A DNA stretch of 64,000 nucleotides from Polymorphobacter megasporae (GTDB lineage: Bacteria; Pseudomonadota; Alphaproteobacteria; Sphingomonadales; Sphingomonadaceae): NCBI RefSeq assembly GCF_018982885.2, contig NZ_CP081848.1, positions 2,666,001 to 2,730,000 of the forward strand, in the 5' to 3' direction. The notes under the pieces are model-generated. The model did no database searches and was not told the DNA's origin. It saw nothing but the letters and a program-made list of their open reading frames with translations. Below are positions 1 to 54,377 of this stretch, piece by piece (the first letter of the stretch is position 1; every line of letters begins with the position of its first letter). A program made the translations under genes and the position numbers.

Positions 1-1141
1 AGTACGCGTCGTAATAGCCCGCCGACAGGACGTACGTCCCGATCATGATCCGGCGCTTGACCTCGGGTCCGAAGCCCGCCGCGCGCGTCGCCTCGTACAT
101 CGCATCGAGGCTCCCGCCGTCGGGGGCGACCCGCAGGCCGTAGCGGACCCCGTCGTAGCGGGCGAGGTTCGACGATGCCTCTGCCGGGGCGATGATATAA
201 TAAGCGGGGAGGGCGTACTTGGTATGCGGCAGCGACACCTCGACGGTCTCGGCCCCGGCGTCGCGCAGCCAGCGCAGCCCCTCGTCCCACACCGCCGCGA
301 CCCGCGCATCCATCCCGTCGAGCCGGTACTCCTTCGGCACCCCGACCCGTTTCCCGCGCATATCCCCGGTCAGCGCCGCCTCGAAGTCGGGCACCGCGAT
401 GTCCAGCGAGGTCGCGTCCTTGGCGTCATACCCCGACATGCTCTGGAGGAGGATCGCGCAGTCCCTCACGTCCCGGGCCATCGGTCCGGCCTGGTCGAGC
501 GACGAGGCGAACGCCACCACCCCCCAGCGCGAGCAGCGGCCATAGGTCGGCTTGATCCCCGAGATGCCGACGAACGCCGCCGGCTGGCGGATCGAGCCGC
601 CGGTGTCGGTGCCGGTCGCCCCGGCGCACAGCATCGCCGACACCGCCGCCGCCGACCCGCCCGAGCTCCCGCCGGGGACCAGTGGCTGGTTCGATCCCGC
701 TGCCCGCCACGGCGAGATCACTCCGCCGAAGGCACTGGTTTCGTTCGACGAACCCATCGCGAACTGGTCCATGTTGAGCTTGCCGAGCATCCCCGCGCCG
801 TCGCCGAACAGCTTGGCGGTCACGGTCGACTCGTATGGGGGCACGAACCCCTCGAGGATCTTCGACCCCGCCGTCGTCTGGACCCCCGCGGTGGCGAACA
901 GGTCCTTGATCCCGAGCGGGATGCCCGCCAGCGGCCGCGCCGCGCCGTCGGCCAGCGCCGCATCCGCCGCCACCGCCGCCGCCCGGGCATGGTCCGGGGT
1001 CTCGACGATGAAGGCGTTGAGCACCCGCGCCGCCTCGACCGCGGCGATGTGGACTTCGGCCAGCTCGACCGCGGAGAAGGTCTTCGCCCGCAGCCCGTCG
1101 CGCATCGCGGCGATGGTCAAGCCATTGAGTTCATTGCTCAT
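1..1141 (-). CDS. gatA: Asp/Glu-tRNA amidotransferase subunit A (partial, C-terminus beyond left edge)
   Basis: Glutaminase/amidase subunit of the GatCAB complex, which converts mischarged Glu-tRNA(Gln) and Asp-tRNA(Asn) into the correct aminoacyl-tRNAs in the cytoplasm. About 380 codons are in the window. The amidase-signature catalytic set is visible: Lys79 in [10 protein letters not shown], Ser159 in [10 protein letters not shown] and Ser183 in [11 protein letters not shown], which matches the Lys-cisSer-Ser triad of the family. The ATG at 1141 overlaps the gatC stop as ATGA, so the two are translationally coupled. The product begins [17 protein letters not shown], a typical GatA start. 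gatB is not in the window and may lie to the left. The C-terminal part is missing only because of the window edge. Confidence 0.97.
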
Positions 1142-1425
1142 TCGATCACCTTCGGGACCGCGAAGAAGCCGATCTCGCTCGCCGGGGCGTTCGCCAGCAC
1201 CTTGTCGCGGACCCCGCCGTCGGTGACCGCGTCGGCGCGCCAGCGCAGGGTGTTGGGGATCACCGCGGTCATCGGCGCGACGCCGCTGGTGTCGACTTCG
1301 GCGAGCTGTTCGATCCACGTGAGGATGCCGTTGAGCTCCCCGACGAGCGGCTCGGCCTCGCCGGGGGCGAGCTTGATCCGCGCCAGCTTGGCGATGCGGA
1401 TGACGGTGGCGGCGTCGACGGACAT
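1138..1425 (-). CDS. gatC: Asp/Glu-tRNA amidotransferase subunit C
   Basis: Small 95-residue subunit that stabilises GatA within GatCAB. The sequence begins [19 protein letters not shown] and contains the family's [19 protein letters not shown] segment followed by the linker to TLRWRADAV. Length is normal for GatC. A longer frame runs upstream to 1515, but the extra 30 residues are low-complexity and unlike GatC, so the ATG at 1425 is chosen. It is followed directly by gatA with a 4-base overlap. The 385 bases upstream hold the spaced repeat array. Confidence 0.96.
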
Positions 1426-1514: not shown

Positions 1515-1788
1515 AAGGTTACACTAGTCCACACAACGACCAGCTTTTCGCGGTCCTCTACGCGTCATCCGCCCGCCAAAGGTTACACAAGTCCACACAA
1601 CGACCGGCTTTTCGCGCTCGCCGCGACCGCTCGAAGGTTACACAAGTCCACATAACGACCGGCTTTTTCGCGTTGCCGCCGCAAGCCGCCGTCCGCCCGA
1701 AGGTTACACAAGTCCACGGAACGACCAGCTTTTCGCGCCCTTCGCGCCCTGAAGGTTACACATGTCCACACAACGACCGGCTTTTTCA
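1515..1788. repeat. Array of five spaced ~37-39 bp direct repeats
   Basis: Five copies start at 1515, 1579, 1634, 1700 and 1752 on the plus strand. Each begins AAGGTTACAC, continues through a variable A/T and GTCCAC, then ACGACC(A/G)GC, and ends in a T-run plus CGCG. The first 30 positions differ at only one to three sites per copy. The stretches between copies are 14-27 bases, unrelated to each other and GC-rich. Start-to-start distances are 64, 55, 66 and 52, so reading frame is not kept and a protein repeat is unlikely. The array fills most of the space between gatC and the small gene ending at 1811. It does not fit CRISPR because the gaps are too short and uneven. Function unknown. Confidence 0.9.
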
Positions 1789-1810: not shown

Positions 1811-2035
1811 TCACCGCCCGCGCTGCTCCGCGACCCGGCGGCGGAAGATCGCGTCGTTGGCGAGCAGCGTCGCCTCGACCGCCGGGTCCATCTGCCGCTC
1901 GTGCGCCGTCGCGTCGAGCCGCGCCTGCCACTCGCTCCAGGCGTCGCTCTCCCCCCAGCCATCGCGCGGGAAGGGATAGGCGGCGGGGCCCTGGACGAAG
2001 GTCGGGCGGGGAAGGGGCGGTATCGGGCGGGTCAT
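1811..2035 (-). CDS. Small conserved-looking hypothetical protein
   Basis: A 74-residue soluble protein starting MTRPIPPLPRPTFVQG. It is proline-rich at the N-terminus and then has a charged helical stretch (SEWQARLDATAHERQMD) ending EQRGR. No family is recognised. The ATG at 2035 is preferred because AGGAG lies 8 bases upstream; the frame can be extended 8 codons to a TTG at 2059 that has no ribosome binding site. It sits alone between the SRAP gene and the repeat array, all on the minus strand. No membrane segment or signal peptide is seen. Confidence 0.6.
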   Translation of the reverse strand: MTRPIPPLPRPTFVQGPAAYPFPRDGWGESDAWSEWQARLDATAHERQMDPAVEATLLANDAIFRRRVAEQRGR

Positions 2036-2136
2036 CGCGTCGTCTCCTGCGTTGTTCAACAGGAGAACGTCTCACGAACGCGGGGGTGTAGGACAGCGGT
2101 TTCTAGGGGGCCGCCGCGCTCCCGGATTTGCCGAGC

Positions 2137-54205: not shown

Positions 54206-54326
54206 CAAAAACGCTGTCCTACACTGCGCCGGTCCGCCTAGATTGCTGGCATGACTGAGTCGGCCCCTTGACCGAAATCCGGAGCGCCACCGCGCAAAAC
54301 AACCGGACCGGTACGACGGGGAGGAT

Positions 54327-54377
54327 ATGCGGGGGGTACGTGGCGTCAGGTTCATCAACTTCGTCCAGTTTGCTTGA
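54327..54377 (+). other. Possible leader peptide or abandoned start of the DctA-type gene
   Basis: GGGGAGGA (54318-54325) stands just before an ATG that opens a 16-codon frame, MRGVRGVRFINFVQFA, ended by TGA at 54375. The frame is the same as that of the carrier gene starting at GTG 54402, so the TGA separates a strong translation start from the gene. It is either a short leader peptide or the relic of a longer N-terminus. Confidence 0.35.

Follow-up and report, generated by a model that had tools for sequence, protein, structure and literature searches.

A five-copy repeat array upstream of gatC in Polymorphobacter megasporae as a candidate companion of a dispersed promoter-like motif

Dispersed repeats of bacterial genomes are often hard to tie to a function. 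Tandem sites are known from OmpR/PhoB-type response regulators, whose boxes pair two direct half-sites at a distance of about 11 bp. TAACTGA direct repeats, which are intergenic and occur in marine Beggiatoaceae, Cyanobacteria and Bacteroidetes, are proposed to be regulator binding sites (PMC4679880). Among the matches listed in the open PMC literature, there was no paper on the repeat described here, termed class 1, or on the sequence TGTCCTACA in sphingomonads.

The window, that is the 64,000-nt stretch of the P. megasporae genome under analysis, carries five plus-strand copies of the class-1 unit AAGGTTACACAAGTCCACnnAACGACCnGnTTTT at 1515-1785. Copy 1 (AAGG..TTTT) occupies 1515-1548, and copies 2 to 5 follow at 1579-1612, 1634-1667, 1700-1733 and 1752-1785, giving start-to-start spacings of 64, 55, 66 and 52. 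The five copies and their location upstream of gatC and gatA had been recognized in a sequence-only reading of this DNA and are confirmed here, as five matches with at most three mismatches compare with none in 100 dinucleotide shuffles. The array starts 90 nt upstream of the start of gatC (1138-1425, minus strand; Pfam GatC, E 1.1e-19), which is followed on the same strand by gatA (Pfam Amidase, E 5.7e-109). The same reading had held that the spacing breaks the reading frame, which is true for 64, 55 and 52, whereas 66 is a multiple of three; its conclusion that selection acts on DNA or RNA rather than on protein remains the best fit.

Comparison of 42 genomic copies revealed the constant core AAGGTTACACAAGTCCAC-nn-AACGACC-n-G-n-TTTT. 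A core of 30 bases with a T-run/CGCG tail had been proposed; the core is real, but the two positions 5' of AACGACC vary freely (their commonest bases reach 43% and 48%), conservation 3' of the T run is weak (about 43-67%) and copy 5 of the window lacks CGCG. The idea that a doubled ACACAA in every copy marks a dimer site did not hold up, as both exact words are present only in copy 2 of the window's five and in 9 of the 42 genomic copies. What stays constant in tandem is AAGGTTACAC followed by AAGTCCAC..TTTT, with a half-site period of 10 bp. Class-1 units are non-palindromic and all point in the same direction within a locus. Their cores are constant and the linkers variable, yet the linkers are not all unrelated, as had been stated: the eight linkers of pairs spaced at 52-53 bp genome-wide align at 1.32 versus -1.64 (sd 0.45) for shuffled linkers. 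For the four window linkers (1.25 versus -1.18 when shuffled, with an sd of 0.90 and a best value of 1.33 among 300 shuffles), kinship is suggestive only. Helical phasing at 52-53 bp, where 8 of 26 spacings fall, was rejected as an explanation: the linkers of those pairs are related, and ancestry thus accounts for at least part of this spacing.

In the P. megasporae genome (G000; 4.89 Mb, three contigs) the class-1 unit occurs 42 times with at most three mismatches, as opposed to 0 matches for the reversed control, and these copies form 16 loci, all on contig C1. Five other genomes of the genus were searched, yielding one copy in the sister species G002, a Polymorphobacter sp. MAG, and none in the remaining four; likewise, a family-wide search of 199 genomes, P. 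megasporae included, returned matches with at most two mismatches in these two species only. A search of plasmids gave no match, exact scans of viral contigs gave none to class 1 or to the orphan element introduced below, and an exact class-1 scan of a genome contig collection, from which near genomes may be left out, gave none either. The sequence-only reading would have been refuted by copies found only here and in no relative; in this genome there are 16 loci, but hardly any of the other genomes searched has the exact unit. Its suggestion of a leader-RNA element of gatC fails, since the unit occurs at 15 other loci and accompanies a promoter-like motif containing TGTCCTACA rather than gatC. 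An iteron-like array was a further suggestion; protein binding stays the best fit, but replication iterons are not supported, given 16 dispersed chromosomal loci and window neighbours such as gatC, gatA and an SRAP gene. A CRISPR array, dismissed already in that reading, indeed does not fit the uneven spacing and the varying units.

The motif that accompanies the arrays, TGTAGGACAG, lies on the same strand as the class-1 array and 142-477 bp beyond it at 14 of 16 loci, as compared to 0.1 upon random placement; allowing a free 11th base raises this to 15 of 16, because locus L020 carries TGTAGGACAGG, which differs at that position. No partner motif was seen at L013. Read on the opposite strand, the motif becomes GCTGTCCTACA-N15-TANNNT, which, in the -35 and -10 terms used for bacterial promoters, looks like a rigid promoter-like motif with an unusual and very constant -35 part. 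TANNNT follows CTGTCCTACA at exactly 15 nt in 39 of 51 distinct copies, a set that includes copies fetched because a site was present, and in 22 of 30 when only copies retrieved through the motif itself are counted. The analysis points to 80 near-exact copies of GCTGTCCTACA-N15-TANNNT (at most one mismatch) in the P. megasporae genome versus 1 for the control, and TGTAGGACAGC alone, a part of the orphan element, is found 66 times versus 7 for the reversed control. At the same stringency, 88 other genomes of the order, G002 not among them, contain 0-9 copies each, that is 60 versus 57 for the control and hence no excess, so that fewer data back its occurrence outside the genus.

At gatC, the partner motif CTGTCCTACA-N15-GACGTT is located at 2066-2096 on the minus strand, and its -10 place thus reads GACGTT, not TANNNT. 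This place is covered by a GTTC-N7-GTTC box (2065-2079, minus strand), which we take to be LexA-like and which is also present in G002 and at L178; the SRAP gene (2137-2859) lies beside it. Between motif and array there is a 74-aa ORF (1811-2035, minus strand) without a Pfam family, which is found in G002 at 67% identity and is absent from the other 28 genomes searched. A scan of 1400-2200 for TTGACA/TATAAT-type promoters found none. The window contains a second promoter-like motif, CTGTCCTACA-N15-TAGATT (54214-54244, plus strand), with a class-C-like tandem site (GTCAGGTTCATCAACTTCG..) about 120 nt past it (54345-54371, plus strand).

Class 1 is one of several site types found next to the motif. 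One to five sites stand in tandem per motif, each composed of two similar half-sites, in one orientation and on the would-be transcribed strand. In array orientation, class A reads AAGTTCAnnnnAAGTTCACAC (AAGTTCA-N4-AAGTTCAC; period 11 bp; 31 matches in the P. megasporae genome), class B reads AAGGTCACACGAAGTTCAC (AAGGTCA-N4-AAGTTCAC; period 11 bp; 14 matches) and class C reads GGAAGTTGACGAAGTTGAC (AAGTTGACG then AAGTTGAC; period 9 bp; 8 matches). Many class-A sites carry ACAC..GTGT ahead of a T run. The rsmB leader contains a class-A site; cobT, an MFS gene and a peptidase S10 gene have class-C-type sites in theirs. In 22 of 25 class-C-type motif-site pairs, some of them orthologous, an ATG comes 35-39 nt after TGTCCTAC begins, just past the -10 place, and in 20 of these 22 cases the ORF stays open through the site. 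Short ORFs at L018, L080, L081, L090, L094, L133, L191 and others accordingly look leaderless. A conserved leader peptide is rejected, as the ORFs pass through the sites in all three frames (10, 6 and 4 cases). Yet another site class, in which TTAAGTTGACAGAGTTGAC stands twice in tandem, was noticed at L076 and L221, and L094 contains a sub-threshold Rfam match to whalefall-1 (positions 1638-1693, minus strand; 25.6 bits versus a gathering threshold of 37), which is probably due to chance.

The linkage between sites and motif is well shown within the genus. Within 650 bp, 14 of 16 class-1 loci have a partner motif, as do 23 of 29 class-A loci and 13 of 13 class-B loci. In each case the motif shares the strand of the site and lies 3' of it, with 0 cases in a 5' or opposite-strand position; random rotations yielded means of 0.08-0.18 and at most 3. 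The six class-A loci without a partner are at 279394, 2499867, 2946792, 3062054, 3104721 and 3877491. Conversely, a tandem half-site pair was present downstream of the motif in 37 of 51 copies, as compared to 0, 0 and 1 in three controls, and a same-strand downstream pair in 21 of the 30 copies fetched by motif alone (0, 0 and 1 in controls). Nine of the 14 motif copies without a pair are class-1 loci, which the search expression could not match; L071 and L076 carry variant sites, and at L073 a class-B site lies past the 500-nt limit, which leaves L051 and L097 unaccounted for. In other genera, TGTCCTACA with at most one mismatch is located within 190 nt upstream of 6 of 11 class-C sites (L179, L186, L182, L195, L185 and L191); the sites at L183, L189, L194, L184 and L190 lack it.

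The far ends of the clusters recurrently consist of an orphan element, AATGAGAAAGARC...TGTAGGACAGC, in which the promoter-like motif is followed after 13-42 nt by the constant sequence GYTCTTTCTCATTG, as deduced from 74 aligned sequences (L038-L067 and L098-L134). Among 99 genomes, this pattern occurs 32 times in P. megasporae, 19 times in G002 and once in G080, and 28 of the 32 P. megasporae elements possess a site. The genome contig collection contributed 38 stretches, nearly all titled sphingomonads; one derives from an unplaced alphaproteobacterial MAG (L116), and another, from a Paludibacteraceae MAG outside the sphingomonads (L099), may reflect chance. Going by their layout, the orphan elements are possible intergenic non-coding RNA genes. 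The 74 aligned elements gave no consensus fold; many fold singly, as judged without a control.

Comparison with the sister species showed that the slot next to the motif is kept while class and copy number can change. At gatC, G002 and the window can be aligned as far as position 1486 (91%) and then from 1811 onwards (71%); in between, G002 contains three class-A units spaced 87-88 bp apart in place of the five class-1 units. G002 also has both TGTAGGACAG and the GTTC-N7-GTTC box. L078/L048 represents a clean switch between classes A and B. At L014/L062 the switch is not clean: opposite three class-1 units, the sister locus has one class-B site together with one degenerate class-1-like unit. 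An apparent switch at L009/L054 was discarded, since the G002 side is cut off by a contig end and a class-C-like site is common to the two loci; L140/L131 and L047/L056 were left out of the comparison along with it for the same contig-end reason. Elsewhere the class is the same on both sides: A at L172/L042, L045/L046, L053/L060 and L158/L171, B at L067/L064, L061/L066, L093/L120 and L136/L145, and C at L080/L133. Copy number varies in place between the species, as in minisatellite or VNTR loci, with 3 versus 1 units at L015/L024 and 2 versus 3 at L174/L100. The plus cluster of L021 has class A in G002 and lacks class 1, and its minus cluster is missing as a whole composite, the gap measuring ~158 bp in G002 versus ~825 bp here. 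Positions 8869-8996 of L021 harbour a ~128-nt dispersed repeat, which has dozens of matches in G001, G002 and G005.

The array folds less stably than its shuffles on both strands (z = +1.82 minus, +1.85 plus), and the only Rfam matches in the window, one tRNA and one 6S RNA, are away from it; together with the missing consensus fold of the orphan elements, this led us to reject a structured leader RNA. Hairpins between units were likewise rejected, since 14 linkers fold like shuffles (mean z 0.13). An intrinsic terminator, that is a G+C-rich hairpin plus T run, was sought at 1400-2200 with 0 found. Regarding MITEs or transposon ends, there is no inverted repeat at 1200-2100, and the one locus whose composite is absent from G002 has borders that are not sharp.

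The polarity is fixed, the slot persists while its unit class changes, and the cores stay constant; on these grounds we regard the array as a companion of the promoter-like motif. Judging from sequence patterns, we tentatively favour, short of confidence, the view that it represents multi-copy dispersed cis-acting sites for protein docking, which would act on transcription from promoter-like motifs. A sequence-specific protein would dock on the tandem sites, with more copies allowing higher occupancy, and might thereby limit or condition transcription begun at the motif through a roadblock or attenuation. At gatC, a LexA-like box overlaps the motif and the array lies between the 74-aa ORF and gatC, so that the array may insulate gatCA from this putative promoter and could keep DNA-damage-induced transcription out of gatCA. 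Several observations speak against this model: half-site periods of 9, 10 and 11 bp, depending on class, are awkward for one rigid dimer; the motif at gatC has no TANNNT, and no TTGACA/TATAAT-type promoter was found at 1400-2200; the motif shows no excess in the 88 other genomes of the order; relatives have hardly any class-1 copies; and the class-1 loci L013 and L020 lack the strict partner motif. It is possible, although we would not count on it, that the whole amounts to an undescribed sphingomonad regulatory system, in which a promoter class GCTGTCCTACA-N15-TANNNT would drive leaderless short ORFs or orphan non-coding RNAs and would be combined with interchangeable docking-site arrays in the first few hundred transcribed bases, the slot persisting as unit type and number change from species to species. 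Control-level motif counts in the 88 genomes and loss of the L009/L054 switch make this wider reading slightly less probable.

After protein docking on DNA, we rank recognition in RNA and then selfish or neutral turnover. The sites could act in the transcript, be it a 5' leader or an orphan non-coding RNA begun at TGTCCTACA, as unstructured motifs for an RNA-binding protein or ribosomes; this is rather doubtful, although the sites share one orientation on the would-be transcript, the array has little structure, varying half-site spacing would be tolerable for single-stranded RNA, and 22 of 25 class-C pairs have an ATG at 35-39 nt, its ORF crossing the site without a stop in 20 of these 22. The mixed frames of these ORFs (10, 6 and 4) leave no conserved peptide, at most orphan loci there is no gene that could be controlled, Rfam offers nothing convincing, and we know of no RNA-binding partner or family for these sites.

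The turnover of units is what a selfish or neutral repeat would show, spreading and changing by duplication, conversion, loss and hitch-hiking beside the motif: class 1 has 42 copies here, a single one in G002 and 0 in four further genomes of the genus, L015/L024 (3 versus 1) and L174/L100 (2 versus 3) differ in number, the linkers of 52-53 bp pairs are related, and G002 lacks the L021 minus-cluster composite (~158 versus ~825 bp gap). The mobile mini-repeat of the sequence-only reading retains this much, that is class 1 only here and once in G002, with unit type and number turning over in slots; it is at odds with the fixed orientation relative to the motif. Side and orientation are fixed at nearly all loci, the same place is held by three different classes, cores stay constant while linkers drift, and terminal repeats or a transposase were not seen, albeit without a systematic search, all of which renders such an origin unlikely. 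Least probable of these, and in our estimate quite improbable, are 3' end elements, that is terminators or 3' processing signals of a gene ending just before the array in array orientation. Several loci do have their first unit some tens of nt past a same-direction stop codon, and the T run, preceded by ACAC..GTGT in many class-A sites, would fit. However, 1400-2200 contains no terminator-like site, class 1 lacks a hairpin, linkers average z 0.13, no plus-strand gene ends before the array at gatC, and the sites at L018 and L082 lie in 5' leaders. Docking of a protein on DNA thus stays our preferred explanation, and fixed side and orientation together with an orthologous slot holding a different but analogous array provide a testable handle on the function of such repeats.

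Among known systems, OmpR/PhoB boxes resemble classes A and B in having half-sites about 11 bp apart; they differ from class 1 (period 10 bp, which speaks against such a box) and class C (period 9), and from all sites here in that these lie downstream of the promoter-like motif. Staphylococcal STAR elements are not known to us to be linked to promoters or to switch classes. They share with the present repeats an interspersed, intergenic direct-repeat organization with variable arrays, and differ in sequence and host (PMC3532100). REP/BIME elements are similar in having many short extragenic copies, some of them clustered, but REPs are palindromes in alternating orientations (PMC2817692), whereas class-1 units are non-palindromic and run in one direction per locus; with no inverted repeats at 1200-2100 and folding below that of shuffles, a REP/BIME identity was rejected. 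TAACTGA repeats also consist of short tandem sites with few copies per set at many loci, and their neighbours lack a functional theme (PMC4679880). Their heptamer is absent from the unit consensus, which argues against a repeat of that type, and sequence and spacing are different; most of them are described there as lying just upstream of start codons, whereas the sites here are tied to an upstream motif and mostly do not lie by a start codon.
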